Source: a virus
Direction: 5' to 3' (one strand)
IMG/VR virus record: IMGVR_UViG_3300005613_003983
Coordinates: 1-55,071 of that record
Length of the DNA stretch: 55,071 nt
The stretch's first letter is position 1; each line of letters starts with the position of its first letter. This document shows, piece by piece, positions 7,029 through 38,451 of the stretch. The notes under the pieces were generated by a model. That model saw nothing but the letters and a program-made list of their open reading frames with translations. It searched no databases and was not told the DNA's origin. The position numbers and the translations under genes are program-made.

Positions 7029-7288
7029 ATAATTTAACGACTTTTGAAGAAGCCATAGATTCGGTTTTAAAAGAATTAAAGGATTTATTAATATTAAAAC
7101 AAAAAAGCTATGGTAAACATAATATTACAGATTTTGGCAAGTTTGGGATATTAGTAAGATTGAATGATAAAATAAGTCGTTTAAAAAATCTCCAAAATAA
7201 AAAGAACCCTTTAAAAGACGAAACAATTAAAGATACATGGAAAGATATTGCTAACTATGCAATTATTTGGCTCATGCTTGACAAATAA
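7025..7288 (+). CDS. DUF1599 / nucleotide-modification-associated (MazG-like) protein
   Basis: 87 aa, all-helical. The pattern KQKSYG..NI.DFGKFGILVRLNDKISRL followed by DETIKDTWKDIANYAIIWLML matches the DUF1599 family, also called nucleotide modification associated domain 1. The family is related to MazG-like NTP pyrophosphatases and often occurs in phages with modified DNA, which fits the 7-deazaguanine genes at 37-43 kb. Start overlaps the previous stop. Confidence 0.65.
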   Translation: MNNLTTFEEAIDSVLKELKDLLILKQKSYGKHNITDFGKFGILVRLNDKISRLKNLQNKKNPLKDETIKDTWKDIANYAIIWLMLDK

Positions 7289-7586
7289 ATCTTCGATTTA
7301 CCTCTTTCATAATAAAGAGAGATATTAGCAAAAGAGTAACGTATCCTGTGTGGAAACCATCAAAACATTTTTTTTATTTAATTTAAAGAATGACCACCCC
7401 CCGTGGGTTATGCCATTGTAATAGTATAATTGAGGGTTTGAGTTTTAGTTTAAAAAATAGATTTAAGATGGTTTGAGTTTGGGTTGTATATATAGGATAA
7501 AAGAGGGGTTGACCTTATCCCCGCTTATGATAAAATAATAATAACAAAGAATAATAGATTTTATTGAGAGGGGGTGACAAAACATT
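7289..7586 (+). other. 298-bp intergenic region
   Basis: No credible gene. It holds a short hairpin (CTCTTT/AAAGAG near 7301-7319), a T-rich stretch, a C6 run, and near its end a sigma70-like promoter inside an inverted repeat (GGATAA ... TTATCC, about 7494-7520). It separates the lysis/MPE block from the small-gene cluster and is a candidate control region. Confidence 0.5.
7509..7536 (+). promoter_or_regulatory. Putative promoter of the small-gene cluster
   Basis: TTGACC, 16-bp spacer, TAAAAT, about 50 bp before the first small gene. The inverted repeat GGATAA/TTATCC overlaps the -35 box and could be an operator. Confidence 0.45.
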
Positions 7587-7754
7587 ATGACTCCAGAGCA
7601 AATTGCTGAATACAAAGATATGAAGGCTAAAAAAGAGGCTCAAAAGGCAAAGGACAAGGCGTATTATGAAAATTGGAAGGCTCAACAAAAGAAAATGAAA
7701 GCATTTTACGCAAAATGGTATGGCAAGGTGGTCAAAGGAACAAAAATTGAATAA
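7587..7754 (+). CDS. Small basic helical protein
   Basis: 55 aa, MTPEQIAEYKDMKAKKEAQK..., behind GAGAGGGGGTG. Very rich in Lys, Ala, Gln and Tyr with helical periodicity. First gene of the small-gene cluster. Unknown function. Confidence 0.6.
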   Translation: MTPEQIAEYKDMKAKKEAQKAKDKAYYENWKAQQKKMKAFYAKWYGKVVKGTKIE

Positions 7755-7803
7755 TAGCCTGACAGAGTGGCTGAGCAATCGGCCACTCTGATGAGGTTTT
7801 TAT
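7751..7803 (+). promoter_or_regulatory. Two-stem intercistronic RNA element 1
   Basis: Inner stem CAGAGTGGC/GCCACTCTG (7763-7771/7782-7790). The internal loop is GA on the 5' side and ATG on the 3' side. Outer stem ATAATAGCCT/AGGTTTTTAT (7751-7760/7794-7803), with one mismatch and one G-U. The outer stem contains the upstream stop codon and ends next to the AAAGGGGGTG of the next gene. Confidence 0.7.
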
Positions 7804-7822
7804 CAAAGGGGGTGAAATTACC

Positions 7823-7981
7823 ATATCTAAATACAAAAAATTTACAGAAGATGAGATTAAAGAGGTTTTAACAGATAGATGTCGGCACGGTTTACCAAGA
7901 ACATTCTGTTACCGATGGTTTAAAACTGTCGGACAATGGCAAAAAGCAATCTATCCTAGCAAATTACGCAAAGAATTATAG
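7823..7981 (+). CDS. Small protein with ATA start
   Basis: 52 aa reading (M/I)SKYKKFTEDEIKEVLTDRCRHGLPRTF... with no ATG, GTG or TTG near the strong AAAGGGGGTG site. ATA (eight bases after it) or ATT two codons earlier must initiate. The helical, amphipathic N-terminus and HGLPRTFCYRWF look like real protein, possibly DNA-binding. Unknown function. Confidence 0.5.
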   Translation: MSKYKKFTEDEIKEVLTDRCRHGLPRTFCYRWFKTVGQWQKAIYPSKLRKEL

Positions 7982-8058
7982 GATAAATCAAAAAGACGAT
8001 TTACCCCTATACAAAGTAACGATATTAGGTATAAAAGCATAAAATTACTAAAATAATT

Positions 8059-8406
8059 ATGAGATATTTTATGAGTGATGATATTAAAAAAATAAACATA
8101 GAAAGTATTTTTAACCCCTCTTTTACCTCTTCTTTTAATCACTCCTCAAGTAAGTCTTATTGTCTTTATAATAAAAAAAGGCATATCAGAAAAATAAAAC
8201 AAAATATTCGGGACATTGGTTTATCTCTGCTTATGATTACATTATTTACACTATTCTTCGGGTATAACCTATTGCGGGGTATTGATAGATATTACGAAAA
8301 TCAAGACAAAATGTTCTGCAAATCGGCTTTAGTTAGCAAAAACAAGGAATATCTTAACAAATGTCAATGCTTTTACAAGGGGGGTGATATAAATTGCATA
8401 CATTAA
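8059..8406 (+). CDS. Single-pass membrane protein
   Basis: 115 aa (or 111 from the ATG at 8071). One membrane helix at about 55-76 (GLSLLMITLFTLFFGYNLL) lies between a basic segment (KKRHIRKIKQNIR) and a Cys-containing tail (CQCFYKGGDINC). The ribosome binding site is poor. The end overlaps the next gene, whose Shine-Dalgarno lies inside it. Unknown. Confidence 0.45.
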   Translation: MRYFMSDDIKKINIESIFNPSFTSSFNHSSSKSYCLYNKKRHIRKIKQNIRDIGLSLLMITLFTLFFGYNLLRGIDRYYENQDKMFCKSALVSKNKEYLNKCQCFYKGGDINCIH

Positions 8407-8657
8407 CAAAAAATGACTCATTAACAGAGTATAGACTGTCTAAAGAACCTAAATCATTACGACGACTGGCTTGGATTTTAGAAATGAAACGAAGCGTTCC
8501 CTATTGGAACTCACGAAATGTCAACAGAACAAGACGGTGGCTAAATATCAAAAGAGATAAACAAATTATATTACTAAAAAATGAAGGATTATCTCTGGAA
8601 AATATATTTGCTTTTGTCAAAAAATATAAGTTAGTCATCGAAATGTGCAAAAACTAG
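8394..8657 (+). CDS. Small basic protein, TTG start
   Basis: 87 aa. TTG start seven bases after AAGGGGGGTG. Rich in Arg and Trp (RRLAWILEMKRSVPYWNSRN), suggestive of nucleic-acid binding. Unknown family. Confidence 0.55.
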   Translation: MHTLTKNDSLTEYRLSKEPKSLRRLAWILEMKRSVPYWNSRNVNRTRRWLNIKRDKQIILLKNEGLSLENIFAFVKKYKLVIEMCKN

Positions 8658-8707
8658 GAGCTTAACTTAATTCCCTAATCAATTAGGGAATTAGGACTAA
8701 TCTCTTA
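8655..8707 (+). promoter_or_regulatory. Two-stem intercistronic RNA element 2
   Basis: Inner stem TAATTCCCTAAT/ATTAGGGAATTA (8668-8679/8682-8693). Outer stem TAGGAG/CTCTTA (8655-8660/8702-8707) contains the upstream TAG stop and ends just before GAGAGGGGGTG. Confidence 0.6.
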
Positions 8708-8726
8708 CGAGAGGGGGTGACACATT

Positions 8727-8915
8727 ATGAAAACAATCAATCTCTATATTAAACACAATTACGGTGCTGAATATGCCTATGTCAAAGACGAAAAAATGGC
8801 AAAACCGATCCGACAACTAACTGGACAAAAAACTGTTAGTCGAGGGCATATTAAAGCTCTAAAAGATTTAGGGTTTAATTTTAGAATAGTTACAAATACC
8901 GACATTATTGGATAA
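8727..8915 (+). CDS. Small protein of unknown function
   Basis: 62 aa, MKTINLYIKHNYGAEYAYVKDE..., behind GAGAGGGGGTG. Contains RQLTGQKTVSRGHIKALKDLGF, a possible short helical DNA-binding or regulatory element. No family recognised. Confidence 0.55.
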   Translation: MKTINLYIKHNYGAEYAYVKDEKMAKPIRQLTGQKTVSRGHIKALKDLGFNFRIVTNTDIIG

Positions 8916-8948
8916 ACAAGTCTTTTTACGAATGGGGGTGACAAAATT

Positions 8949-9191
8949 ATGAGAAAAATAACTCAAAAAGAACTAATTCAAAACGAAGGATGTAGCAAAT
9001 ACTTATTAAAAAAAATCAAAAATCATGCTTTAAACAGTTTTTTTAGATTGAATGCTAAAACTGCTGATTGTTATGCTTTTGACATATCAAAAAATGATTG
9101 GTGCGGTGGTTGGGATTGGTCAACAATGTTAGTTGATTCTGAAGCAAAGTATCTTTTTATGTTAAAAGATAAAACTTTCTATCTTGCTTAA
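8949..9191 (+). CDS. Small protein of unknown function
   Basis: 80 aa, MRKITQKELIQNEGCSKYLL..., preceded by ATGGGGGTG. Tryptophan-rich middle (DWCGGWDWSTML). No domain recognised. Confidence 0.55.
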   Translation: MRKITQKELIQNEGCSKYLLKKIKNHALNSFFRLNAKTADCYAFDISKNDWCGGWDWSTMLVDSEAKYLFMLKDKTFYLA

Positions 9192-9209
9192 AGGAAGGAG
9201 GTAATTCTT

Positions 9210-9407
9210 ATGATGGGAGCATTATACCCAACTAAAAAAGCATTAAAAGCTTGCGTCGGTCAGAGTTTGCGGTATCAAGAAACATCGATGTTTGGTGCTG
9301 AATACAAAAGAAATGGCAGTTTTTGTGTAGTCGGACCAAATCCGATAGAACGAAAATGGTTTGCTGAGGTAACAATGAAAAATGGCTTAATCGCAAAAGT
9401 CAGTTAG
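9210..9407 (+). CDS. Small protein of unknown function
   Basis: 65 aa. Two adjacent ATGs; ribosome binding site AAGGAAGGAGG. Contains KKALKACVGQSLRYQETSMFG and GPNPIERKWFAEVTM. The stop codon lies in RNA element 3. Confidence 0.55.
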   Translation: MMGALYPTKKALKACVGQSLRYQETSMFGAEYKRNGSFCVVGPNPIERKWFAEVTMKNGLIAKVS

Positions 9408-9455
9408 AGCTTAACAGAGTGAACAATCACTTGTTCACTCTAATGAATTTCTAAC
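9403..9455 (+). promoter_or_regulatory. Two-stem intercistronic RNA element 3
   Basis: Inner stem AGAGTGAAC/GTTCACTCT (9416-9424/9433-9441). Outer stem GTTAGAGCTT/AATTTCTAAC (9403-9412/9446-9455), one C-T mismatch. 3' internal-loop bases AATG. The upstream stop TAG is inside the outer stem; GAAAGGGGGTG follows directly. Confidence 0.75.
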
Positions 9456-9475
9456 GAAAGGGGGTGACAACTATA

Positions 9476-10045
9476 ATGAATGATTACCAAAAAGAACAAA
9501 ACAAAAAAAGGCAAGAGTTATTAAAAACAGTTAAGAGCTTTACTAACGAAGCGGTCAAGTTAGAGGGCGGAGACAGTATGGCTGTTAAAATAACTAAAGA
9601 TTTTCCTATTTATATCAGAGGCAAGAACTTTAATAATCAATATACTTTTAGTTTATGGCATAAATTAAAATATATTACCCATTCTGATAGGAACAGAGTG
9701 GAGGAAAAATACCAAAAGCCTAATAATATAGGAGTAATGAACGCCAAAAAACTTGAAGCCTGGGTTAAGTATTTAAAATTGATATATCTTGACTTGTGTC
9801 AATTAAGTAAAGACAAACAAAACAAGGTCGATACCTTTATGACTAAGGTTAAAAAGATAAAAGACCTAAAATTAGGCGGTTACAACCTTAGTGAGGGCGA
9901 GTTTAGAGGAACTCTTGTCAAGGGCGGTTTAGACTATAGCTTTGAAATTAACAGGAGTGGCTATATTAACGAAAAAATAGAAGTCCACTATGCAACTGAT
10001 GAAACTCTTGAGAACTTTTTAAAGTTGGCAGACAACAAGCTTTAA
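9476..10045 (+). CDS. Protein of unknown function
   Basis: 189 aa from the ATG nine bases after GAAAGGGGGTG; a GTG at 9464 is part of that site. Begins MNDYQKEQNKKRQELLKTVK; contains FPIYIRGKNFNNQYTFSLWH and ends in an acidic helix. Largest protein in the small-gene cluster. No recognised domain. Confidence 0.65.
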   Translation: MNDYQKEQNKKRQELLKTVKSFTNEAVKLEGGDSMAVKITKDFPIYIRGKNFNNQYTFSLWHKLKYITHSDRNRVEEKYQKPNNIGVMNAKKLEAWVKYLKLIYLDLCQLSKDKQNKVDTFMTKVKKIKDLKLGGYNLSEGEFRGTLVKGGLDYSFEINRSGYINEKIEVHYATDETLENFLKLADNKL

Positions 10046-10050
10046 AAAGA

Positions 10051-10103
10051 TTTAGAGCTTCACAGAGTGAACAAATAATTGTTCACTCTAATGAATCTTT
10101 AAA
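10051..10103 (+). promoter_or_regulatory. Two-stem intercistronic RNA element 4
   Basis: Inner stem AGAGTGAACAA/TTGTTCACTCT (10064-10074/10079-10089), nearly the same as element 3. Outer stem TTTAGAGCTT/AATCTTTAAA (10051-10060/10094-10103) with the same C-T mismatch. Internal loop CA / AATG. Confidence 0.75.
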
Positions 10104-10148
10104 GAATGAACTAATTCAAGAAATTAAAAAGAAAGGAGGTAATGAACT

Positions 10149-10358
10149 ATGACATCATTAAGTCTTAACAAAAAAGCACAGGTCAAATTGGGTATGGGTG
10201 GTGAGTATCTAGAATTGAATATCTTTGGATTAACCAAAGAAGAAATGAAAAAACTCTCCAGTCTTTCAAAAGGACATTTAAAACTAGACAAAGGAAATAA
10301 AGATACAAGCATTAAATGGTTGGCGGGATTAGCAAGAGTAGTATTTTTCAAAGATTAG
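10149..10358 (+). CDS. Small protein of unknown function
   Basis: 69 aa, MTSLSLNKKAQVKLGMGGEY..., behind AAAGGAGGT. Lys-rich, ends RVVFFKD. The stop codon lies in RNA element 5. Confidence 0.55.
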   Translation: MTSLSLNKKAQVKLGMGGEYLELNIFGLTKEEMKKLSSLSKGHLKLDKGNKDTSIKWLAGLARVVFFKD

Positions 10359-10406
10359 AATTTAACAAAGCTTCTAACTAGTTTGGGGGCTTTGATTAGA
10401 TTTTAA
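10355..10406 (+). promoter_or_regulatory. Two-stem intercistronic RNA element 5
   Basis: Outer stem TTAGAATTTAA/TTAGATTTTAA (10355-10365/10396-10406) pairs over all 11 positions with two G-U pairs. Inner stem CAAAGC/GCTTTG (10366-10371/10389-10394). It contains the upstream TAG stop and is followed by GAAAGGAGG. Confidence 0.65.
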
Positions 10407-10421
10407 GAAAGGAGGCTAACA

Positions 10422-10640
10422 ATGAATGAAGGCATAGTCATAGGAATGGACGTTTTAACAATGACTGCTAGAGTAAGACTTAATGCAGAAACAATAAAAA
10501 GTATTAAAGCAGAAAGAATTTACAAAATGGGTGAAATTATTAAAATCTCACAGGAAATCCCTTGGTATCTAAAGAAGCAAATAATCAAAAAAGACATCTG
10601 GGGTAATCCTATACCTATTCACGGAGAGAGGATTGCTTAG
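10422..10640 (+). CDS. Small protein of unknown function
   Basis: 72 aa, MNEGIVIGMDVLTMTARVRL..., behind GAAAGGAGG. Contains WYLKKQIIKKDIWGNPIPIHG. No domain recognised. Confidence 0.55.
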   Translation: MNEGIVIGMDVLTMTARVRLNAETIKSIKAERIYKMGEIIKISQEIPWYLKKQIIKKDIWGNPIPIHGERIA

Positions 10641-10655
10641 AAAGGAGGCGGTAGT

Positions 10656-10844
10656 ATGTATAAAAAAACAGAAGAACAACTAGAAGCAGAAATTATTGAC
10701 GAACTAATAAGAATGAAACGCTTTTGGCAAAAGCCAACGAGCTATAAAAATCATACCAAAAAATCCCTTGTTGATATGATTGGCTATGACCTAACAAGGA
10801 TTATGCTTGCTGTTAATGATTTAAAAGAAAGGAGGAAAAAATGA
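10656..10844 (+). CDS. Small helical protein of unknown function
   Basis: 62 aa, MYKKTEEQLEAEIIDELIRM..., behind AAAGGAGGCGG. Mostly helical and charged. Overlaps the next gene by ATGA. Confidence 0.55.
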   Translation: MYKKTEEQLEAEIIDELIRMKRFWQKPTSYKNHTKKSLVDMIGYDLTRIMLAVNDLKERRKK

Positions 10845-10984
10845 AAGTCAATAAAAAAGAAATGAGATATATTGACGAAATCTTAGAACTTATTGATAAC
10901 AGAGACGAATTCACACGAAGCGACCTTCAAGGTATAGTTGGAGCGTTAGTAAAAAAAATTATTGAGGAACAACGGAAAGTTTAA
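10841..10984 (+). CDS. Small helical protein of unknown function
   Basis: 47 aa, MKVNKKEMRYIDEILELIDN..., starts inside the upstream stop with GAAAGGAGG eight bases upstream. Ends GALVKKIIEEQRKV. Unknown. Confidence 0.55.
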   Translation: MKVNKKEMRYIDEILELIDNRDEFTRSDLQGIVGALVKKIIEEQRKV

Positions 10985-10989
10985 TAATA

Positions 10990-11085
10990 AAGAAAACAGC
11001 TAATCATTTTACAAGTTTTTTAACTCTGGCTAGAGGTTAAGAGGCTGACTAAGCTGATTATACATTATTAGCACATTAAAAACTC
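10990..11085 (+). promoter_or_regulatory. Structured intergenic RNA, larger variant
   Basis: The 120-bp gap between genes holds nested pairing: inner TTAACTCT/AGAGGTTAA around 11020-11041, and an outer CAGCTAATCA / TGACTAAGCTG pairing (about 10998-11007 and 11046-11056) with a bulge. Likely a larger relative of the two-stem elements. Coordinates are approximate. Confidence 0.4.
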
Positions 11086-11104
11086 GATCAGAAAAGGAAC
11101 AAAA

Positions 11105-11521
11105 ATGACAAGTGCAGCTATGGCAGCTAAAGCTATTCGAGAAGAATTGAAAATTAAATTTCCTAATATAAAATTCAAAGTTAGGAGTCAAAATTACTCA
11201 AATGGCAATTCAGTCAATATCAGTTATAAAAACGCCATTCCTGAGGACAAAATAGAAGCTATTGTTAATAAGTATCAATACGGCAATTTCAATGGCATGA
11301 TTGATCTATACGAAATGACCAATGATCGAAAAGATATTCCACAAGCGAAATATATTTTTGTCAATAGAGAAATCGATCAAGATATTCTTGACACTAAAAA
11401 ACTAGAAATTGCCAAAAAGTATGGCATAGAAAATCCCGATGATAATATGGAATGGCTAAAAAAATTCAATCAATACTCTGAGCAAATAGTCTGGAAAGAA
11501 GTATCAAAAATGACTATTTAA
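11105..11521 (+). CDS. LPD29-like domain protein
   Basis: 138 aa. AAKAIREELKIKFPNIKFKVRSQNYSNGNSVNISY, then EAIVNKYQYGNFNGMIDLYE, matches the pattern of LPD29 (a large-polyvalent-protein-associated domain) found in phages, plasmids and conjugative elements. Biochemical role unknown. It has its own weak AAAAGGAAC site and follows a structured gap. Confidence 0.65.
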   Translation: MTSAAMAAKAIREELKIKFPNIKFKVRSQNYSNGNSVNISYKNAIPEDKIEAIVNKYQYGNFNGMIDLYEMTNDRKDIPQAKYIFVNREIDQDILDTKKLEIAKKYGIENPDDNMEWLKKFNQYSEQIVWKEVSKMTI

Positions 11522-11578
11522 TCCTTCATAATCTCTTCAAGTTTGATCGAGGCTTGAAGAGATGATTAAGAGATTAAA
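11517..11578 (+). promoter_or_regulatory. Two-stem intercistronic RNA element 6
   Basis: Inner stem ATCTCTTCAAG/CTTGAAGAGAT (11531-11541/11553-11563). Outer pairing TTTAATC/GATTAAA within 11517-11526/11568-11578. The upstream TAA lies in the outer stem; GGAAGGAGGTG follows. Confidence 0.7.
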
Positions 11579-11595
11579 GGAAGGAGGTGAAAAAT

Positions 11596-11760
11596 ATGAG
11601 AAAACTAAAAAAGTTTATTGATAGATTGAAAAGAGCTTGGGATTTAGCTAAGAAAATAAAGATAATTAGAAATAATGCTACTGGTATTGATGAGATATGG
11701 TTTGACAGAACAAAAAAAGCCAATAGAGGAATTTGTAGCTCTTATTGTAGAATTGCTTAG
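11596..11760 (+). CDS. Small basic protein of unknown function
   Basis: 54 aa, MRKLKKFIDRLKRAWDLAKK..., behind GGAAGGAGGTG. Strongly basic N-terminal helix, Cys-containing C-terminus (GICSSYCRIA). Confidence 0.55.
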   Translation: MRKLKKFIDRLKRAWDLAKKIKIIRNNATGIDEIWFDRTKKANRGICSSYCRIA

Positions 11761-11777
11761 AAAGGTGGTGATATTTT

Positions 11778-11960
11778 ATGAATGACGAAACCTATGAAGC
11801 ATTAAAAAGAGTAGTTAAAAAAACTAGAAATCTACTTAATACAAAATACGGACATAGAAAACGACTAAAATCAAATGAGGTATGGGAAAAAGCTGTCTTG
11901 ATTAAAGATATTAGGCAAGTAGAAAACTGGATTGACGAAACAGCTAAAGAACATAACTAA
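11778..11960 (+). CDS. Small protein of unknown function
   Basis: 60 aa, MNDETYEALKRVVKKTRNLL..., behind AAAGGTGGTG. Helical and charged. No domain recognised. Confidence 0.55.
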   Translation: MNDETYEALKRVVKKTRNLLNTKYGHRKRLKSNEVWEKAVLIKDIRQVENWIDETAKEHN

Positions 11961-11989
11961 TTAAATTATAACAGAGAGGTGGTGATAAT

Positions 11990-12154
11990 ATGAAAACCTA
12001 TATTCTCAAAAGTAACTATGAATATGAAATTCAAGCCAATAGTAAAGACGAAGCTCTTGAAAAGTGGAACGAAATAATTGAAGAGGAATTAGGATCTACT
12101 AATCAGGGTCTTTTGAATGTGCTTTGCGAAAGTTTGTATGCTAAAGAAATATAA
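11990..12154 (+). CDS. Small protein of unknown function
   Basis: 54 aa, MKTYILKSNYEYEIQANSKD..., behind GAGAGGTGGTG. The opening looks like the beta-strand plus helix of small phage proteins with SKDEALEKWNE. Unknown function. Confidence 0.55.
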   Translation: MKTYILKSNYEYEIQANSKDEALEKWNEIIEEELGSTNQGLLNVLCESLYAKEI

Positions 12155-12227
12155 AGAAAAGAAAGGAGTTAGAAACTAATATCTAGAATGAATAAAAACT
12201 ATTCTTCTAAAAGGGAGGTGATAAATT

Positions 12228-12344
12228 ATGAGCAATAAATTAAATGCTGAAGATGAACTAGAAATTGCTACAGAGATGATGACTGAAGCACAATATGACG
12301 AATTTCTGAAAAGAGTGGAAAAGGCAGAAGGAAAAGAAGAATAA
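12228..12344 (+). CDS. Small acidic protein of unknown function
   Basis: 38 aa, MSNKLNAEDELEIATEMMTE..., behind GGGAGGTG. Acidic helical peptide. Confidence 0.5.
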   Translation: MSNKLNAEDELEIATEMMTEAQYDEFLKRVEKAEGKEE

Positions 12345-12376
12345 ACATAAAAACTCACAAAAAGGAGGTGAAAAAA

Positions 12377-12709
12377 ATGATTGACAGAGGCAGAGATGAA
12401 TATGGACAATTTGTTTCCTATCTTCCTCGATATTACGATCATCATAAATCTTATCTTGAGCTACACGATAATCATACTATCTGGGATTTAGAAAATGAAA
12501 ATAAAACAGACGAGGAGTATCTTGTGCTAGTAGAAGAAGCTGTTCAGTTTTTTGAATTAAGAACAGAAACACCCTTGTTTCTCTTAGGTAGGTCAGGAAG
12601 ACACGTTTGTGTAGAGGATAATTATAAAAACAGCAAAAGGTATCAATGGTTAAAAAGGGTAGCTTTAGAATTAGAACAAAATATGATTGATACTTTTAAT
12701 ACGAAATAA
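12377..12709 (+). CDS. Protein of unknown function
   Basis: 110 aa from the ATG after AAAGGAGGTG; a GTG at 12368 is part of that site. Begins MIDRGRDEYGQFVSYLPRYY; contains FELRTETPLFLLGRSGRHVCVED, which resembles small phage proteins with a beta-rich C-terminus. No domain named. Confidence 0.6.
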   Translation: MIDRGRDEYGQFVSYLPRYYDHHKSYLELHDNHTIWDLENENKTDEEYLVLVEEAVQFFELRTETPLFLLGRSGRHVCVEDNYKNSKRYQWLKRVALELEQNMIDTFNTK

Positions 12710-12761
12710 GAACTTCATTGGCAAGATAAGTATACCTTGTCTTGCTAAATGAATCCCTTAT
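12706..12761 (+). promoter_or_regulatory. Two-stem intercistronic RNA element 7
   Basis: Inner stem TTGGCAAGATAAG/CTTGTCTTGCTAA (12718-12730/12736-12748, two G-U), loop TATAC. Internal loop CA / ATG as in the other copies. Outer ends ATAAG/CTTAT (12706-12710/12757-12761). Followed by GAAAGGAGG. Confidence 0.7.
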
Positions 12762-12775
12762 GAAAGGAGGTTATT

Positions 12776-12976
12776 ATGAAAAAATATATTAACGGTTTGT
12801 CAGGAGAAGAAGAACATTTAGCATTAAAGATGTTAAATAAAAAAGAGATGACAGAAGAACAAAAAGACTTCTTGAAAAGATTAGAAGAATTTTTCAAGTG
12901 GAACTGCAGTAAAAGTGAAATGGATGATAGAGCAATGATTTTGAATCAATTATTAGAAGAATTAACAAATTATTAA
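12776..12976 (+). CDS. Small acidic helical protein
   Basis: 66 aa, MKKYINGLSGEEEHLALKML..., behind GAAAGGAGG. All-helical, acidic. Unknown function. Confidence 0.55.
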   Translation: MKKYINGLSGEEEHLALKMLNKKEMTEEQKDFLKRLEEFFKWNCSKSEMDDRAMILNQLLEELTNY

Positions 12977-13005
12977 AAAACATTAATAGAGAGGGGGTGA
13001 AAAAC

Positions 13006-13431
13006 ATGACAAGAGGAAAATTTGTCTTAATAACTAAAAAGCAGGTTTATATTAGCACAGAATTCAATGGCGATATGTATCCTGAATATCATGGCAAAGA
13101 TGTTTATAGACGATTATTAAAGGTAAAAAATTTAGCAGATTTAACCAGAGAAGTTAAAGACTTTAATAAACAAAACTTTAATTACAAAGAAAAGCTCATA
13201 AATGAGAGAAGTCTTAAATGGTTAAAGAAAACTAAGGATTTTAATTGGAGATACTTTGATAATTGGTTCAGTGACTGGCTCTATATTAAAAATCTTTCGG
13301 GTGAAGATATTACCTTCATATTGGATAAAAGCAAAAAAGATAGACTTGTGCTTAATGGAGAAACAGTTGCTTTTTATTTTGGTCGAAATCCTAATAAAAA
13401 GGAAAAAGAGCATCTTATGCATATAGTCTAA
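13006..13431 (+). CDS. Protein of unknown function
   Basis: 141 aa from the ATG after GAGGGGGTG; a GTG at 12997 is part of that site. Begins MTRGKFVLITKKQVYISTEF, a pattern seen in small phage proteins that start with a beta hairpin. Continues YPEYHGKDVYRRLLKVKNLADL. No domain named. Confidence 0.6.
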   Translation: MTRGKFVLITKKQVYISTEFNGDMYPEYHGKDVYRRLLKVKNLADLTREVKDFNKQNFNYKEKLINERSLKWLKKTKDFNWRYFDNWFSDWLYIKNLSGEDITFILDKSKKDRLVLNGETVAFYFGRNPNKKEKEHLMHIV

Positions 13432-13460
13432 AAAAGTCTAAAAAAGAGGAGGTGATATTT

Positions 13461-13625
13461 ATGGAAATTACCAAAGAAGATTTTGAGAGCTATAAAAGGG
13501 TAAGAGACTCTGGGGTAACTAATATGTTTAATGTTAAAAAAGTTGGCGAGCTTTCAGGATTGGAGAAAAAGACGATACTTGAGATAATGAAAAACTATGC
13601 AACTTTAGAGAAAAACTATGCATAA
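13461..13625 (+). CDS. Small protein of unknown function
   Basis: 54 aa, MEITKEDFESYKRVRDSGVT..., behind GAGGAGGTG. Contains TNMFNVKKVGELSGLEKKTI, a pattern seen in short phage proteins of unknown role. The stop codon is the start of RNA element 8. Confidence 0.6.
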   Translation: MEITKEDFESYKRVRDSGVTNMFNVKKVGELSGLEKKTILEIMKNYATLEKNYA

Positions 13626-13683
13626 GTAGTCTGACAGTAGAGGTTTGTCTAAGGCGGATAAACCTCTACTGATGAGATTATTT
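13624..13683 (+). promoter_or_regulatory. Two-stem intercistronic RNA element 8
   Basis: Inner stem CAGTAGAGGTTT/AAACCTCTACTG (13635-13646/13660-13671). Internal loop GA / ATG, the same as element 1. Outer stem AAGTAGTCT/AGATTATTT (13624-13632/13675-13683), nine pairs with two G-U. Followed by AGAGAGGAGGTG. Confidence 0.75.
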
Positions 13684-13699
13684 AGAGAGGAGGTGAATT

Positions 13700-14197
13700 A
13701 TGCTAGATTTCATAGCTGGAAATATACAGGCTAAAAGAGCTTTATCAATCGCTCTCGACGGTAAACATTCTATTAAGTTTATAGGAAATGAAGAGGCTAA
13801 ACAATTTGCAGATTTTGCTAAAAAACAAAGCATAGAGGCTTATGCTTTTAAGCCTTGTCTTTGTGGTAATTTTGGAAGTTCAACAAAATCTTGTAGTTGT
13901 AAGCCTGAAGAAATAGCCGAGGTTCAAAGGAAAATTGCTTTAACTCCTACAGACTTAACTGTGGAAACGACTAGACCACAAGTAAAAAAAGCAATGATAG
14001 TTCTTGCTAAAGAGTTTAAAAACTTAAATCCAGAAGTATTAGCTCTTTTAAATAATGCTTATAGTCAAATGAATCTTGAAATGTATGAAGCAAGGCAGAT
14101 ATTAAGGGTTGCTAAAACTATAAGTAAGTTGAATCAAAATTCAAGAATTGAGACTTGTGATTTAGCTGAGGCTTTACAGTATAGACCAAAGTCTTAA
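13700..14197 (+). CDS. Miniature ComM/ChlI-like protein lacking the ATPase core
   Basis: 165 aa. Three pieces match ComM (YifB) in order. Residues 3-30 (DFIAGNIQAKRALSIAL, KHSIKFIG) match the segment before the P-loop. Residues 52-80 (CLCGNFGSSTKSCSCKPEEI) match the Cys-rich PCPCG/CxC region. The C-terminus (ARQILRVAKTISKLNQNSRI, DLAEALQYR) matches the Mg-chelatase C-terminal helical domain. The Walker A and B motifs and most of the AAA+ fold of the roughly 500-aa family are missing. It may be a dominant-negative partner or decoy of a host ComM-type helicase; this is inference. Confidence 0.65.
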   Translation: MLDFIAGNIQAKRALSIALDGKHSIKFIGNEEAKQFADFAKKQSIEAYAFKPCLCGNFGSSTKSCSCKPEEIAEVQRKIALTPTDLTVETTRPQVKKAMIVLAKEFKNLNPEVLALLNNAYSQMNLEMYEARQILRVAKTISKLNQNSRIETCDLAEALQYRPKS

Positions 14198-14243
14198 TTC
14201 TTTTCTCTCTCTTTAAGAAATTAAAGAGAGGATAAAGAGTTAA
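14194..14243 (+). promoter_or_regulatory. Two-stem intercistronic RNA element 9
   Basis: Inner stem CTCTCTTTAA/TTAAAGAGAG with a GAAA tetraloop (14207-14216/14221-14230). Outer stem TTAATTCTTT/AAAGAGTTAA (14194-14203/14234-14243), ten pairs with one G-U. Internal loop TCT / GAT. It ends the small-gene cluster, before the promoter at 14301, so here it could also act in termination, although no T-tract follows. Confidence 0.7.
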
Positions 14244-14300
14244 AATAAAAGAGGTTTGAATAAATTTTAATAAAAGATAAGCCTAGTTAGAATTGAATGG

Positions 14301-14329
14301 TTGACTTTTGGAGTAGAATGATGTATAAT
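14301..14329 (+). promoter_or_regulatory. Sigma70-type promoter, conserved family
   Basis: TTGACT, 17-bp spacer, TATAAT, with a spacer resembling those at 18553, 21603, 27478 and 51004 (ends AGAATGATG). It heads the operon beginning at 14370. Confidence 0.8.
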
Positions 14330-14369
14330 ATATAGAGTTAAAAAAGGATTTTAAGAAAGGAGTAAGAAA

Positions 14370-14582
14370 ATGAGAACAATAGGAAAAAGGAATGTCAATT
14401 TAGTTAAGAGGTTAACAAGAAAAGCTCTTGAAAAGAGAAAAATGCCGTGGGGTATAGTAGAAAGCTATCAAGGAATTGACAAGGAAATAATAGACGAGTT
14501 GCCTGTTAAATTGTGGGACACTTGGGAAATGGCTGACCAAGAAATTCGGAGAATTATAAATGACACGATTGGAGCTTATTGA
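14370..14582 (+). CDS. Small basic protein of unknown function
   Basis: 70 aa, MRTIGKRNVNLVKRLTRKAL..., behind AAGAAAGGAG. First gene of the 14.3-kb operon. Basic N-terminus, acidic C-terminus. Confidence 0.55.
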   Translation: MRTIGKRNVNLVKRLTRKALEKRKMPWGIVESYQGIDKEIIDELPVKLWDTWEMADQEIRRIINDTIGAY

Positions 14583-14596
14583 AAGGAGGTAAAACT

Positions 14597-14782
14597 ATGA
14601 AAGTTACAATAACTCATAAATGTAAAAAAAGAGCATACGAATATAAAACTATCAATCTTAATAAAACTGGATTGAAGGGTTGGGAAATATCTACAAGGTG
14701 GGGACAATATGGTCCTATAAATAATGTAAGAATTGATAAAGAAGGTAATATCTCCATTGTAGTAAGAAAAGAAATTAGTTAG
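14597..14782 (+). CDS. Small protein of unknown function
   Basis: 61 aa from the ATG behind GAAAGGAGG; a TTG at 14579 overlaps the upstream stop. MKVTITHKCKKRAYEYKTIN... Beta-rich. Unknown. Confidence 0.55.
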   Translation: MKVTITHKCKKRAYEYKTINLNKTGLKGWEISTRWGQYGPINNVRIDKEGNISIVVRKEIS

Positions 14783-14838
14783 AATTTAATGAGGAGAGGC
14801 TTGGGAAAACTCACAAACCTTTCCTGATAAGGTTCTAA
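14779..14838 (+). promoter_or_regulatory. Two-stem intercistronic RNA element 10
   Basis: Inner stem AGGAGAGGCTTG/CAAACCTTTCCT (14792-14803/14814-14825, two G-U). Outer stem TTAGAATTT/AAGGTTCTAA (14779-14787/14829-14838). Contains the upstream TAG stop. Unlike the others, no good ribosome binding site follows. Confidence 0.6.
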
Positions 14839-14847: not shown

Positions 14848-15222
14848 ATGTGGCAAATTATAATTGAAATTATTTTGACATTAAAATCTTTTGATAGTTC
14901 TTTTTTTACAGGAATAGTTACTTTAGCCTATATCTACTACATGAGAAATGAGTATAAGGAACTAAAGCAAGAATTAAAACATCATGTGTCTGAGGCAAAA
15001 GAAAAAGAAGAGATAGAACAACCAGAGATTAAAGGGACACCAATTAGGTTTTATGCCCAAAAAGCTGGATATTTAATAGAAGAACATCGAGGCTCTTTCT
15101 TTGTGATGATAAGACCTAATGGAGAGAAAATGGATAAAGTATTTTACAATCTTAAAAAGGCTGAAGAAGAAATAAACACGATGATTCCTTTTTTTGAAGA
15201 AACTATAAAGAGAAAAAGATAA
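14848..15222 (+). CDS. Membrane-anchored protein of unknown function
   Basis: 124 aa. N-terminal membrane segment (about residues 2-32), then a charged helix (NEYKELKQELKHHVSEAKEKEE). A small C-terminal alpha/beta region follows (IRFYAQKAGYLIEEHRGSFF). No Shine-Dalgarno sequence is visible. Unknown. Confidence 0.55.
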   Translation: MWQIIIEIILTLKSFDSSFFTGIVTLAYIYYMRNEYKELKQELKHHVSEAKEKEEIEQPEIKGTPIRFYAQKAGYLIEEHRGSFFVMIRPNGEKMDKVFYNLKKAEEEINTMIPFFEETIKRKR

Positions 15223-22168: not shown

Positions 22169-22477
22169 GTGAAATCATTTATAGATTTATCTGAATTAAA
22201 AGTCTATAGAGACAATATAGACGGTGAAGATGATGGAATTGGAAGATTATTCGCAGCGATTTATAGGTTGGCTGTAACAGATGAGATTAATGCCAACTTA
22301 TATGGAACAAATAACAAGAATGTTGTTAGGTGGGTTGAGAGTAGATATTTTGCTGTTTATTTAAAAATGCTTGGAATAGAATTTTCTAATAGATTTAGAG
22401 AGGCTTTCTGGAAAACTTGTGAAAATAGATTTAAGAAAACAGTTAATAGATTAACAGGAAAAAAATTATATAAATAG
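22169..22477 (+). CDS. Protein of unknown function
   Basis: 102 aa from GTG. KSFIDLSELKVYRDNIDGED..., helical with many Arg and aromatic residues. No clear ribosome binding site. Unknown. Confidence 0.5.
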   Translation: MKSFIDLSELKVYRDNIDGEDDGIGRLFAAIYRLAVTDEINANLYGTNNKNVVRWVESRYFAVYLKMLGIEFSNRFREAFWKTCENRFKKTVNRLTGKKLYK

Positions 22478-22486
22478 TTTTTTAAA

Positions 22487-22544
22487 CAGGTAGAATGGTA
22501 AAAACGATTCTATTCTTGGGTAGAGCGAATGGTCGTTCTACCTG
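22487..22544 (+). promoter_or_regulatory. Structured RNA element in gap (A)
   Basis: Outer stem CAGGTAGAATG/CGTTCTACCTG (22487-22497/22534-22544), 11 pairs with one G-U. Inner pairing GATT-CT-ATTC/GAATGGTC (22506-22515/22527-22534). The motif GAATGGT occurs twice here and again in element B. Confidence 0.6.
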
Positions 22545-22568
22545 CTTAGAAAATTATTTATTTCATGT

Positions 22569-22612
22569 TGGAATGGTAGCCCTAATACAAAACCTGTATT
22601 GTGACCGTTTCA
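22569..22612 (+). promoter_or_regulatory. Structured RNA element in gap (B)
   Basis: Outer stem TGGAATGGT/ACCGTTTCA (22569-22577/22604-22612), nine pairs with two G-U. Inner stem AATACA/TGTATT (22584-22589/22595-22600). It lies in the leader of the gene at 22643. Confidence 0.55.
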
Positions 22613-22642
22613 GCATTAAGTAAAGAATTAAAAAAGGAAAAT

Positions 22643-23387: not shown

Positions 23388-23449
23388 CTAATTGTGTTCC
23401 GAACCTTCTTTTAAGGTCACCCCCTTTCCAGAATTCGGAACACAATTAG
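23388..23449 (+). ncRNA. Long hairpin whose loop is complementary to the phage ribosome binding sites
   Basis: Perfect 16-bp inverted repeat CTAATTGTGTTCCGAA/TTCGGAACACAATTAG (23388-23403/23434-23449). The 30-base loop contains CACCCCCTTTCC (23418-23429), the exact complement of GGAAAGGGGGTG. That is close to the Shine-Dalgarno sequence of several genes here (for example at 9458 and 22861). No T-tract follows, so it is not a typical terminator. Confidence 0.6.
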
Positions 23450-23534
23450 TATGAGTAATTAGGGTTGAGAGGTAGATTACTCATATGAGGAAAGATTGTC
23501 TTGGCAGAGATTTTTCATTCATCCCTCTCAACCC
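23450..23534 (+). ncRNA. H-type pseudoknot upstream of the rtcB operon, riboswitch-like
   Basis: Stem 1 TATGAGTAAT/ATTACTCATA (23450-23459/23476-23485). The loop of stem 1 contains GGGTTGAGAGG (23462-23472), which pairs perfectly with CCTCTCAACCC (23524-23534) to give an 11-bp stem 2. It ends seven bases before the ATG at 23542, placing it in the leader of the rtcB operon. Confidence 0.6.
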
Positions 23535-23541
23535 AAATAAT

Positions 23542-23766
23542 ATGAAAGTAAAAGTAGAAGAAAAATTATTAAAGATAATAAGCTCATTTGTTGGACAAGA
23601 GCTTAAATATGGAGAACTGAAAGATATTAAGGTTAATAATAGAAGTGTTTTAGTTTTAGAACTAACCTTTTCAGATGAGGGGTTTTTTAGAACTATGGTT
23701 TTAGCATTAGATAAGAATTTAACAGTTTCTTTATATTCTCCGATAGCAGAAGAATTAATAAAATGA
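23542..23766 (+). CDS. Small protein encoded before rtcB
   Basis: 74 aa from the ATG after the pseudoknot. An in-frame ATG at 23485 would lie inside stem 1 and add 19 unlikely residues. MKVKVEEKLLKIISSFVGQE..., ends [14 protein letters not shown] overlap with rtcB indicates translational coupling. Unknown function. Confidence 0.55.
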   Translation: MKVKVEEKLLKIISSFVGQELKYGELKDIKVNNRSVLVLELTFSDEGFFRTMVLALDKNLTVSLYSPIAEELIK

Positions 23767-25010
23767 AAGTAACTAGTTCAGAAAAACTACCAGTCAAATT
23801 GTGGATGGAAAACTTTACTGATATGGAATCAGGGGCTTGGAATCAAGTTAAAAACCTTGCTAATTTTCCATTTGCTTTCAGACATATAGCTATAATGCCT
23901 GATGCTCATCAAGGTTATGGTATGCCTATTGGTGGAGTTATGGCTACTAAAAATGTAATTGTTCCAAATGCTGTTGGTGTTGATATTGGTTGTGGAATGT
24001 GTGTGGTTAAAACTTCTTTAAAAAAGATTGATGTTGATATTCTTAAAAAGATTATGGGAGAAATTAGAAAAGTAATTCCGCTTGGATTTAATAAACACAA
24101 AGAAAAACAAGATGAAAAGTTAATGCCTCAGGGTGTGGGGCAGTTGGCTAGCTCGCCCGAGTTGGATTCGGGAGGTCGTAGGTTCGAGTCCTACCACCCT
24201 GACCAACAATTTTCGATTATTAAACAAGAATATGAAAATGCTTTAATGTCCCTTGGTACTCTTGGTGGTGGCAATCACTTCATTGAAATTCAAAAAGGTT
24301 CAGATGGTTATATTTGGATTATGATTCATTCAGGAAGCAGAAATTTAGGTTTTAAAGTGGCTAATCATTATAATAAACTAGCGGTTGAACTAAATGAAAA
24401 GTGGGGTTCAGCTGTTCCTAAATCTTGGGAGTTAGCTTTTTTACCAGTAGATAGTAAAGAAGGTCAAGCATATATCAAAGAAATGCGATATTGTATTGAT
24501 TTTGCTTTAGCCAATAGAAAGCTCATGATGGATAGGATTTGTAAAATTGTTGAATCTGCATGTATACCAGATTATCCAGAATCAGCAAACATTGTTTTCG
24601 ACAAAATGATTAATATTGCCCACAACTATGCAGCACTGGAAAACCACTTTGGTCAAAATGTATGGGTTCATAGAAAAGGAGCAACTAAAGCTACAAAAGG
24701 ATTAACAGGTATTATTCCAGGCTCTCAAGGAACTAATAGTTATATTGTAGAAGGATTGGGAAATAGAGAATCTTTTATGTCTTGTTCTCATGGTGCGGGT
24801 AGAAAAATGGGAAGAAAACAAGCTAGAGAAAATTTAGATTTAAAAGAGGAGTTAAAAAAGATGGAAGGTATTGTTCATGGAATTAGAAGTGTTAAAGATT
24901 TAGATGAAGCTCCTGGAAGTTATAAAGAAATAGACAAAGTAATGAGTAATCAATCTGACCTTGTAAAAATATTAGTAGAGCTTACTCCTCTAGCAAATAT
25001 GAAAGGATAA
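23763..25010 (+). CDS. rtcB: RtcB-type RNA ligase with an embedded in-frame tRNA gene
   Basis: 415 aa. RtcB joins RNA 3'-phosphate or 2',3'-cyclic phosphate ends to 5'-OH ends using GTP and Mn2+, repairing cleaved tRNAs and other RNAs. Seen motifs: GVDIGCGMC (metal Asp/Cys), [23 protein letters not shown], and [11 protein letters not shown] (histidine that takes the guanylate). All the key residues are present. Residues 123-148 ([16 protein letters not shown]...) are the translation of a complete tRNA-Pro gene inserted in a variable loop. The C-terminal tail ([16 protein letters not shown]) is duplicated at the end of the homing endonuclease downstream. Confidence 0.9.
24129..24205 (+). tRNA. 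tRNA-Pro(TGG) inside rtcB, CCA encoded
   Basis: Complete cloverleaf by eye. Acceptor CAGGGTG/CACCCTG (24129-24135/24195-24201). D-stem GGGC/GCTC. Anticodon stem CCCGA/TCGGG with loop GTTGGAT (anticodon TGG, 24163-24165). T-arm GTAGG-TTCGAGT-CCTAC, discriminator A, then CCA (24203-24205). C1-G72 and A73 fit tRNA-Pro. A37 instead of the usual G37 and a G32/T38 pair are unusual. It begins exactly on an rtcB codon boundary and is far more GC-rich than its surroundings. Confidence 0.93.
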
Positions 25011-25014
25011 TATT

Positions 25015-25383
25015 ATGGAACTTAAAGAACTTATTGGAAAAACATTGACAAAAATTGAAAATAAGGACAATGAAGAACTTATTTTTGAATGTAATGATGG
25101 AACTAAATATAAAATGTTTCACTATCAAGATTGTTGTGAATCAGTAACAATAGAAGATATTTGTGGCAATTTAGATGATTTGATTGGAAATCCGATTCTT
25201 AGAGCAACTGAAGACACTAATTCAAAATCCAATTCAGAAGGAATAAAAAAAGAATATCAAGACTCTTTTACTTGGACTTTTTATAATATTTCAACAGTCA
25301 AAGGAACTGTAACTATTAGATGGTATGGTGAATCTAATGGTTATTACTCTGAATCAGTTGATTTTGAAAAAATAAAAGAATGA
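25015..25383 (+). CDS. DUF7448-like protein
   Basis: 122 aa. [34 protein letters not shown] and [16 protein letters not shown] match a small phage protein family (DUF7448-like) of unknown function. It lies between rtcB and the homing endonuclease, overlapping the latter, and may be cargo of the inserted element or a pre-existing gene. Confidence 0.55.
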
Positions 25384-25892
25384 AAATAACATTACAATAT
25401 ATTGCTGGATTTTTTGATGGCGAAGGATGTATAGGAATTTATTCTAAAGCATATAGAAAAGGAACATTTCATCTAAGTACACAATTAACTCAAAATAAAA
25501 CTAAAGAGAGTAAATTATTAATGAATTTTTTAGCAAAAAAGTTTGGTGGTAATATATCAGAACAAATTACACTATCTAAAGATATTAAATATAATTGGCA
25601 ACTTGGATCTGATAATGCAGTTAACTTTCTTGAGGCGATATTGCCATATTTAATTCTTAAAAAAAGTCAAGCTATAATCGCTATAAATTGGCAAAAAGAT
25701 AGGCCAAAAAGAATAAGAGATAAAAAAGGAAGATTTTATGTTAAAAGAAAAAGAAACATAGAATTTGATAAAAAAGTTTCTAAATTAGTTAAGTTGTTAA
25801 AAAAGAAAGATATTGATTGGGTAATGGAACAACAAAAAGATTTAGTTAAAATTTTGGTTGAATTAACACCATTGGCAGTTATAAAAGCATAA
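25380..25892 (+). CDS. LAGLIDADG homing endonuclease fused to an rtcB C-terminal tail
   Basis: 170 aa. [14 protein letters not shown] is a LAGLIDADG motif; the following [20 protein letters not shown] and KKSQAI fit the single-motif homing endonuclease fold. The last 23 residues, [20 protein letters not shown] plus IKA, do not belong to that family. They duplicate the end of RtcB ([20 protein letters not shown] plus MKG) while the codons differ at most synonymous sites. The endonuclease tail is nearer to the general RtcB C-terminus than the tail now on rtcB. Confidence 0.85.
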
Positions 25893-25990
25893 TGGCAGGA
25901 AAAACAAAAAAGAAAAAAAACCTAGCTAAAAGAAGAAGAAAAAGATTAAAGAAAAAGTTAAAAAGATTAGAACAAGGCAAAGAGTTTTAG
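25892..25990 (+). CDS. Extremely basic 32-aa peptide
   Basis: [20 protein letters not shown]... with about 20 Lys or Arg in 32 residues. TAATG overlap with the homing endonuclease. It might bind RNA or DNA, or its coding region may be mainly a spacer. A GGAGGAGGTG for the next gene follows directly. Confidence 0.45.
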   Translation: MAGKTKKKKNLAKRRRKRLKKKLKRLEQGKEF

Positions 25991-26006
25991 GGAGGAGGTG
26001 AAAAAA

Positions 26007-26345
26007 GTGGCAGTTATTGATTTAAAAGGTAATGCAAACATTAATTCAGAGAGTAAGGTTGTTTTTAAAAGAGATTTAAAAGATAATGCTTGGTTTCTTT
26101 TAAAAAATAAAAAAGTTCTTCTTTTTGATAAAAAAAACAAAACAACTCGTGAACTTGACACTGTTAGAGGAATATCTTTTATCAAATTCTATATTAGCTC
26201 TTTAAATAAAATGAGAATAGAGGATGGTAAAAAATATAGAAAGAGAATTACAATATTAAAAGAAAAAATAAGAGAGTTAAAGAATAAAAATAGAGAATTA
26301 AGAAAAAGAAAAAGAATTAAAGCGCAGGCGAAGTTAATAAAATGA
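26007..26345 (+). CDS. Basic protein of unknown function, GTG start
   Basis: 112 aa. GTG at 26007 is seven bases after GGAGGAGGTG; the GTG at 25998 is part of that site. The N-terminal half is beta-rich (VIDLKGNANINSESKVVFKR); the C-terminal half is a very basic helix. Possibly nucleic-acid binding. Confidence 0.55.
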   Translation: MAVIDLKGNANINSESKVVFKRDLKDNAWFLLKNKKVLLFDKKNKTTRELDTVRGISFIKFYISSLNKMRIEDGKKYRKRITILKEKIRELKNKNRELRKRKRIKAQAKLIK

Positions 26346-28542: not shown

Positions 28543-29288
28543 TGGCTACAAAAAAGATTGACATTGAAAAAGAATTAAATAAACCACTGCCTAAAGAGGT
28601 GATTAAGCAAAGAGAGGGTGGCAGAGGAATGATGCTTGATTATCTTGAGGGTTGGTGGGTTAAACAAAATGCTAACAGGATTTTTGGTATTAATAAATGG
28701 AGTTTTAAACCTGTTTGGGAACAAATGAAACATATTCCTTTACCCAAAACTCTTAAAGGTAAAACGACTGGTCTTTATACTGTTCCTATTATTCTTACTG
28801 TAAATATAGATGGAGTAGAAACAGAAAGAAGTGATATAGGTTCAACTCAATATTATGGTGATGAAGGCAAAGAGATGGCTATAAAAGGCTGTGTTACTGA
28901 TGCTCTAAAAAGATGTTTTTCTTCTTTTGGAGAGCAATTTGGTTTATCGCTTTATGATAAAAAAGGGGGGGGTTCATCAGTTACTAAAGGTCAAACAGGA
29001 AAAAAGACGTATTTATCACAAGAAGAATTAATGAAAAAGTTTGGGATGAATCCTAAACAAGTAGCTCCAAAGTGTCCTGCTTGTGATGTTACTATGAAGT
29101 TAATTGCAAGAAAAGATGGTTCAGGAATATTCTGGAGTTGTCCTAATTGGAGAACAAAGGGTTGTAAGGGAATGAATGTTGAAGATGTAGATTTAGACGG
29201 AAATCCTTTAAACAAAACCGTTGCCAAACAAGAGCCTCTTGAGGAAAAAGAGCAAGAAAAAGTTGATGTCGAGGATATTCCTTTTTAG
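28542..29288 (+). CDS. Rad52-family single-strand annealing protein with C-terminal zinc ribbon
   Basis: 248 aa. LEGWWVKQNANRIFGINKWS, VERSDIGSTQYYGDEGKEMA and GCVTDALKRCFSSFGEQFGL follow the Rad52/22 DNA-annealing domain. After a Gly-rich linker, a zinc ribbon of topoisomerase type follows (CPACDVTMKLI ... CPNWRTKGCKG). It would anneal complementary strands with SSB (33510) and RecA (31386) in phage recombination. The family lacks such a ribbon in its simplest form, so the fusion is notable. Strong GGGAGGGGGTG site. Confidence 0.8.
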   Translation: MATKKIDIEKELNKPLPKEVIKQREGGRGMMLDYLEGWWVKQNANRIFGINKWSFKPVWEQMKHIPLPKTLKGKTTGLYTVPIILTVNIDGVETERSDIGSTQYYGDEGKEMAIKGCVTDALKRCFSSFGEQFGLSLYDKKGGGSSVTKGQTGKKTYLSQEELMKKFGMNPKQVAPKCPACDVTMKLIARKDGSGIFWSCPNWRTKGCKGMNVEDVDLDGNPLNKTVAKQEPLEEKEQEKVDVEDIPF

Positions 29289-29327: not shown

Positions 29328-29351
29328 CATAATCAATTAGGGAAAGTAGTT

Positions 29352-38437: not shown

Positions 38438-38451
38438 TATATAATAAGGCT

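Follow-up and report, generated by a model that had tools for sequence, protein, structure and literature searches.

Ten two-stem elements in the early region

The IMG/VR virus record IMGVR_UViG_3300005613_003983, analyzed here as a single window of 55,071 bases, contains the tailed-phage genes for portal, terminase, and head protease, and further genes of the RecA/UvsX, RtcB, RNA ligase, and queuosine-pathway types. The part of the window from 7.0 to 15.6 kb is made up of small genes, which lie on the + strand throughout. Within 7.1 kb of this early region we find ten RNA elements, E1 to E10, all on the sense (+) strand, each of which is one long hairpin broken by an uneven internal loop into an outer stem, the loop, and an inner stem. 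They belong to one structured RNA family, maintained by covariation across three related phages; comparison with known phage systems makes it quite probable that they are sites at which ribonuclease III (RNase III) of the host processes a polycistronic early transcript.

In the following, loops are given as 5' side/3' side, and z scores are from a comparison of each fold with 200 dinucleotide shuffles. E1 (7752..7802, z -7.7) follows the open reading frame (ORF) 7587-7754, whose TAA stop codon occupies core positions 1-3, and has a 12-bp inner stem, a 9-bp outer core, and the loop GA/AUG. This loop recurs in E8 (13624..13683, z -8.41), which lies between ORFs 13452-13625 and 13700-14197 and has an inner stem of 16 bp. 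Loop AA/AUG is found in E3 (9404..9454, z -4.89), between ORFs 9210-9407 and 9464-10045, and loop CA/AUG both in E4 (10052..10102, z -6.86), which begins 6 nt past the stop codon of ORF 9464-10045, and in E7 (12707..12760, z -7.0), between ORFs 12368-12709 and 12776-12976. The loops of E2 (8655..8707, z -6.78; between ORFs 8394-8657 and 8727-8915) and E5 (10355..10406, z -6.35; between ORFs 10149-10358 and 10422-10640) are AA/ACU and AA/AUU. One extra unpaired base adjoins the loop in both E6 (11518..11576, z -5.46; CA/AUU, between ORFs 11105-11521 and 11587-11760) and E10 (14779..14838, z -5.6; AA/AUA, between ORFs 14579-14782 and 14848-15222). E9 (14195..14242, z -4.8), whose UC/AU loop is 2x2, is situated after ORF 13700-14197 and before a promoter-like site at 14301-14329. 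Inner stems range from 8 to 16 bp, with most at 11-14 bp, and outer stems are close to 9 bp long; a 2x3 loop is present in 16 of the 17 elements known from the window and its relatives.

An earlier reading of this DNA, made from the sequence alone, had described the same ten elements, with start positions that agree with ours to within 1-3 bases. Its inner hairpin of 6-13 bp was an underestimate of the measured range. The small uneven loop that it proposed is borne out, but the sequences that it gave as frequent (RA or CA opposite ATG or GAT) need correction: family-wide, a 5' NA faces a 3' AU(G/U/A). The concern that the elements might fold no better than shuffled sequence is answered by the z scores, which range from -4.80 to -8.41, with 0 of 200 shuffles folding as well as the native sequence for each of the ten.

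We also scanned the whole + strand of the 55-kb window with a two-stem descriptor that is blind to sequence and scores pairing only (an inner helix, a small loop, and an outer helix). The eight top-scoring positions on the strand are E8, E4, E2, E1, E9, E5, E6, and E3; E7 and E10 are weaker by this measure (ranks 12 and 19 among 73). Eight positions in the window score at least 35, whereas 100 first-order Markov shuffles average 0.18 such positions and never contain more than 2; five score at least 41, compared to none in the shuffles. Two other hairpins of the region, at 11001-11061 (z -1.93) and 7284-7342 (z -1.27), were rejected as members.

A covarying family in three related phages

Relatives of this phage are not easily found. 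There is no near DNA relative among 50,697 phage records, single-protein scans with ORFs 6054, 9464, and 18553 returned no relative, and neither did portal and ATPase searches of a genome collection. A portal protein search led to 13 contigs and a portal alignment to 43 viral loci overall; the early region lies outside most of the contigs that were checked for synteny. The MoxR-type ATPase occurs in only two of the records examined, G009 (100,839 bases) and G010 (102,499 bases), at 60-65% identity. In these, the descriptor and the covariance model described below identified seven further elements, all on the + strand: five in G010 (at 27748, 28547, 29674, 30360, and 31442) and two in G009 (at 27170 and 27642). 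Each of the seven is located in the corresponding early region and sits at the end of the gene before it. Several precede homologous genes: E3 and G010:28547 both stand before homologs of ORF 9464, E2 and G010:29674 before homologs of ORF 8727, and E10, G010:31442, and G009:27642 before homologs of ORF 14848; in each of these groups the stems differ. Two further candidates were left out of all counts or rejected, namely G010:27230-27279, a degenerate look-alike without the loop that model R1 (see below) scores at E=1.1, and G009:24461, which has a different loop. Two DNA-pattern scans returned 27 matches each; none of the first set has the two-stem fold of the family (one, L038, is a strong but different hairpin), and the second set comprises the known G010 copy and 26 chance-like matches. 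A side observation in G010 is an array of twenty tRNA genes on the minus strand just upstream of the early region (23752-26328).

The 17 copies were aligned over their core, centered by hand on the loop, with the extra bases of E6 and E10 dropped and one gap placed in E9. As a null model, 3' arms were swapped between elements 20,000 times. The inner positions of the 17 elements form 134 of 136 possible standard pairs (null 68.8 +- 8.0) and the outer positions 132 of 153 (null 111.3 +- 3.8), and no swap equaled the observed pairing of either stem. When only the ten copies of the window are counted, 78 of 80 inner positions are paired, compared to 41 under the arm-swap null, as are 80 of 90 outer positions. 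Mutual information lies above that of all 3,000 permutations at seven of the eight inner positions. As the 17 elements are related copies, these pair counts are not independent events. The view that the sequences differ while the pairing is kept is thus upheld, both in the window and in the related phages, where the sequence-only reading had proposed to look for it. The + strand also folds at least slightly better than its reverse complement in 15 of the 17 cases, the exceptions being E3 and the copy labeled G9a, with some differences below 1 kcal/mol.

The loop shows the opposite pattern to the inner stem. The inner arms carry a mean of only 0.3-0.4 bits of information, compared to 1.68 bits each for the A and the U of the 3' loop side. 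On the 5' side, the A of NA is present in nine of ten window copies and in 15 of all 17, and the AU of the 3' side likewise in 9/10 and 15/17. The outer U-A pair beside the loop is invariant (17/17). These numbers do not describe a kink-turn of the L7Ae or box C/D type, in which a 3-nt bulge and two canonical stems flank tandem G.A pairs, and we rejected this reading: only 7/17 copies have GA on the 5' side and 8/17 have AUG with a following A on the 3' side, and the would-be second sheared A sits in the invariant U-A pair. Among Rfam 15 families, only two tRNAs exceed the gathering threshold in the window, and nothing matches at the elements even at E<=5.

The 17 covarying examples provide a usable covariance model, and a model built from a subset was used to recover the remainder. 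This model, R1, was seeded with E1, E3, E4, E5, and E7 only, because MAFFT mis-aligned E6 and E9 when given all ten copies, and two later sets mis-aligned E2 or E8. Searched with default filters against 24 sources (476,172 bases) at a cut-off of E<=10, it returned 18 matches, 17 of which are elements or their reverse complements: the five seeds, five + strand matches in G009 and G010, E2, E10, and five reverse complements, with one other match at E=6.3. The matches in G009 and G010 have E values from 8.6e-7 to 0.011 and all fall in the early regions. Held-out E2 was recovered at E=3.2e-4 and held-out E10 at E=1.1 (0.02 with filters off). Default filters missed E6, E8, E9, G010:27748, and G010:28547; with filters off, E6 scored E=0.22, E8 E=0.0047, and E9 E=0.036. 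Without filters, the ten elements are the ten best + strand matches between 7 and 15.5 kb (lowest 14.8 bits, next match 10.7), and the seven elements in 40 kb of G009 and G010 are found at E<=0.014. In control searches, 41 portal-related loci with 483,070 bases in total, in contigs that partly overlap with the 24-source set, yielded no match at E<=5, and the 26 contigs with chance pattern matches yielded none at E<=1.

Position relative to neighboring genes

The position of the elements is set by the gene that they follow. In 14 of the 17 copies the upstream stop codon ends at core position 2-4, and in all of them its last base lies between -6 and +4. Within the window the stop codon is inside the outer 5' arm in nine of ten copies, with E4 as the tenth; the sequence-only reading had noted that it is often there. 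That reading had also placed the 3' arm of most copies in contact with the next ribosome-binding site. This is true of the window, where 7/10 copies have a Shine-Dalgarno (SD)-like match that begins no more than 6 nt from the 3' arm, but not of the relatives, where none of the seven copies has such a match within 15 nt downstream, the nearest being at least 16 nt away. Given this difference and the fixed register of the stop codon, what the family conserves is its placement at the upstream gene's end rather than a link to the following ribosome-binding site. Four of the 17 copies (E9, G010:30360, G010:31442, and G009:27642) are followed by a TATAAT promoter-like site; under a looser promoter rule the number is six, which is not clearly above a background of 20-25%.

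RNase III processing as the probable function

The arrangement described above resembles that of the RNase III sites in the early regions of phages T7 and SPO1. Both plans combine two helices of about 20 bp or more in total, here an inner stem of 8-16 bp and nine outer positions, with a small uneven loop, and place several sense-strand copies between early genes (ten in the window, five in G010, and two in G009). We located T7 sites R0.3, R0.5, R1, R1.1, and R1.3 at the coordinates that we take to be theirs, and all five fold with an inner stem of 9-10 bp, an uneven loop, and an outer stem of 6-10 bp (weak in R1.3). A sixth such coordinate, 1994, has no such fold. The 3' loops of the T7 sites read UAUGA, AAU-AGG, or AGUCA, the first two of which resemble the AUGA found here, and T7 R1.0 (CUUACAGG...CCUGAAUAGG) is strikingly similar to E1 (CCUGACAGAG...CUCUGAUGAGG). 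A U is present at the second 3'-loop position in 16/17 elements, which is similar to the T7 pattern at the presumed cut coordinates. Unlike our elements, T7 sites do not generally overlap a stop codon, there is no significant sequence relation between the two groups (R1.0 is the best T7 match of the model, at E=1.9), and T7 infects E. coli. According to passages in PMC6121014, T7 R1.1, located between genes 1.0 and 1.1, is 60 nt long, has an internal loop that is asymmetric (4/5 nt), and is cut at its main site into fragments of 47 and 13 nt; these sizes would fit a cut in UAU|GAUU. Part of another source, PMC9135205, counts ten RNase III sites in T7, six of them in an intergenic region shared with a promoter.

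The SPO1 entry AF031901 annotates six RNAse III sites, RS-A to RS-F, between small early genes, and a blind run of the descriptor on SPO1, chosen as a Gram-positive comparison, found structures matching RS-B and RS-C. As in our family, several sites lie on the coding strand between small early genes, RS-A to RS-D have two stems and an uneven loop, some sites are followed by a promoter, and the upstream stop codon is inside the site in four of six (RS-F, RS-E, RS-D, and RS-C). RS-A to RS-D share GUUG(C/U)UAG and AUGGAGCC while their inner hairpins differ, so that loop and outer-arm sequence is kept and the inner hairpin varies; RS-E and RS-F are without this motif and fold less well. The SPO1 sites differ in having a larger loop (GCUA or GUUA opposite a CAUGG-like sequence) and outer arms of the form GGUU...AGCC, and model R1 finds none of them. 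RNase III of Bacillus subtilis, a Gram-positive host, is said to cut the early mRNA of phage SP82, in work attributed to Panganiban and Whiteley in 1983, and the SPO1 stretch recurs in the SP82G genome at 97.8%. We also note a further two-stem element in AF031901, at 10539-10597 on the minus strand (L133), which has the motif GGTTGCTAG...ATGGAGCC as in RS-B and RS-C; it carries no RNase III site annotation, only that of an overlapping terminator, TL2.7.

Under this interpretation, the long early message would be divided into pieces of one gene each. The inner and outer stems would stack to give a near-duplex of roughly two helical turns, to be bound by host RNase III, and the uneven loop would limit cutting to the 3' strand, with the conserved AU as the most likely point after which it occurs (AU|GAA). 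The upstream RNA would keep the inner hairpin as its 3' end, which would slow 3' exonucleases. Released from the outer stem, the downstream RNA of seven window copies would carry about 14-16 nt ahead of its SD core. A ribosome terminating on the upstream gene would cover the outer 5' arm, and cutting may therefore wait until it has left. The possibility of a processing site was among those named in the sequence-only reading and is the one that gains support here, although that reading had mentioned no RNase III and had not drawn on T7 or SPO1. Our results speak neither for nor against binding of a phage protein, which it had also named.

Several points weigh against this assignment. The RNase III domain PF14622 was found in none of nine related phage records, while control genomes score, so that the enzyme would have to be that of the host. 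RNase III cutting is predicted from sequence and from likeness to other phages. The SD sequences and the TTGACT-17-TATAAT site point to a bacterial host; archaea are described in PMC8708148 as lacking RNase III. The loop sequence is more conserved in our family than RNase III is generally thought to need. The comparison with T7 uses presumed cut coordinates, with only the fragment sizes of R1.1 taken from print. Finally, model R1 recognizes neither the T7 nor the SPO1 sites at a significant level, so the likeness is one of plan rather than of common descent. That three phage groups have one plan in common, including a U in the 3' loop and, here and in SPO1, a stop codon in the outer arm, suggests convergence.

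The RNA family itself is real and well supported, and its function is most likely an ordinary one, RNase III processing in a new phage lineage. An uncultured lineage would thereby join T7 and SPO1/SP82 as a likely user of RNase III sites in early operons, with sites that have no detectable sequence relation to theirs. The elements also allow a direct test of whether terminating ribosomes control the time at which early messages are cut. In the open-licence literature we found nothing on such elements in this phage group; subscription papers were mostly outside the scope of that search, and their silence is not implied.

Alternative explanations

The strong conservation of the loop could also point to a dedicated factor, encoded by phage or host, that binds or cuts the elements by reading the loop as U-NA-Y / R-AU-N-A rather than to a general RNase III. 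The near identity of the loop A of NA, the AU, and the flanking U-A pair in 15-17 of 17 copies, next to inner arms that are almost free to vary, speaks for such a reader. However, RS-A to RS-D of SPO1, which are annotated RNase III sites, show the same kind of loop and outer-arm conservation, and a conserved loop therefore need not imply a special reader. No candidate for the factor emerged, and we regard this explanation as improbable. A more elaborate form of it, which draws on the fixed loop, the invariant U-A pair, and the stop codon locked at the base of the outer stem, would have a loop-specific nuclease or binding protein cut the early message only once the upstream gene has been fully read, coupling release to completed translation. 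We regard this device, too, as improbable. Translational coupling, another of the jobs named in the sequence-only reading, would have the outer stem hide the next ribosome-binding site until a terminating ribosome opens it, and agrees with the stop codons and SD-like matches of the window. It is very unlikely as the function of the family, because none of the seven copies in the relatives adjoins an SD-like match; in addition, the SD-like match starts beyond the 17-copy core stem in every copy, four copies precede a TATAAT promoter-like site instead, and the conserved loop is left unexplained.

The location of the elements at gene ends, together with the four copies that precede a TATAAT site, might suggest transcription terminators or attenuators. 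A U-run of at least 5 follows the outer stem in only 1/17 copies and the inner stem in none, so that 16 of 17 fall outside the class of intrinsic terminators by this feature; a terminator scan flags E5 alone among the ten, and the looser promoter-like matches are not clearly above background, as stated. We consider this explanation barely tenable. The number of copies in one region might recall dispersed mobile or selfish hairpin repeats, but the inner stems differ between copies, the copies precede homologous genes in three phages, and they keep to a single strand and to a fixed stop-codon register, which leaves that idea with almost no credibility.

Other features of the window

A promoter-like site at 7509..7536 on the + strand (TTGACC-16-TAAAAT, 10 of 12 consensus positions) precedes the first small gene and is probably the start of the early transcript; as the number of promoter-like matches in the region equals the shuffle mean, we only infer this start. 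The motif CTTATGATAA, which is early-promoter-like, was noted by eye near the starts of the early units in all three phages (window 7527-7538, G009 at about 24675-24695, and G010 at about 28270-28290). The site following E9, at 14301..14329 on the + strand (TTGACT-17-TATAAT, 11/12), is the best match between 6 and 17 kb. After E1, inspection by eye of 7821-7979 reveals an SD-like AAAGGGGGTGA and, behind it, an open frame that has no ATG, GTG, or TTG at the expected distance and possibly begins at AUA or AUU. The small ORF 13700-14197 retains only parts of a Mg-chelatase/ComM-like protein (PF13335 and part of PF01078).

Three RNA-repair genes are present in the window, RtcB (23763-25010) and two RNA ligases (35164-36111 and 54235-54873). 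A tRNA-Pro(UGG) gene at 24129-24205 (ARAGORN; 57 bits with Rfam) lies inside the RtcB ORF on the same strand, and the ORF stays open through it. This stretch is an insert that is absent from RtcB of G006 and G010, whose proteins are about 20-24 residues shorter; each of these phages has a tRNA-Pro at another place. The RecA/UvsX, terminase large subunit, and portal ORFs (31386-33416, 44551-48342, and 48388-50994) contain inserts that match LAGLIDADG/HNH endonucleases or intein-bearing families, and these inserts are therefore probably inteins. QueE-, QueC-, and queuine tRNA-ribosyltransferase-like genes at 37737-42800 form a possible deazaguanine DNA-modification cluster, and ParB-like genes adjoin the terminase. 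Strong hairpins outside the element family are found at 22476-22625, 23388-23535, and 29278-29345 (to -28.7 kcal/mol).

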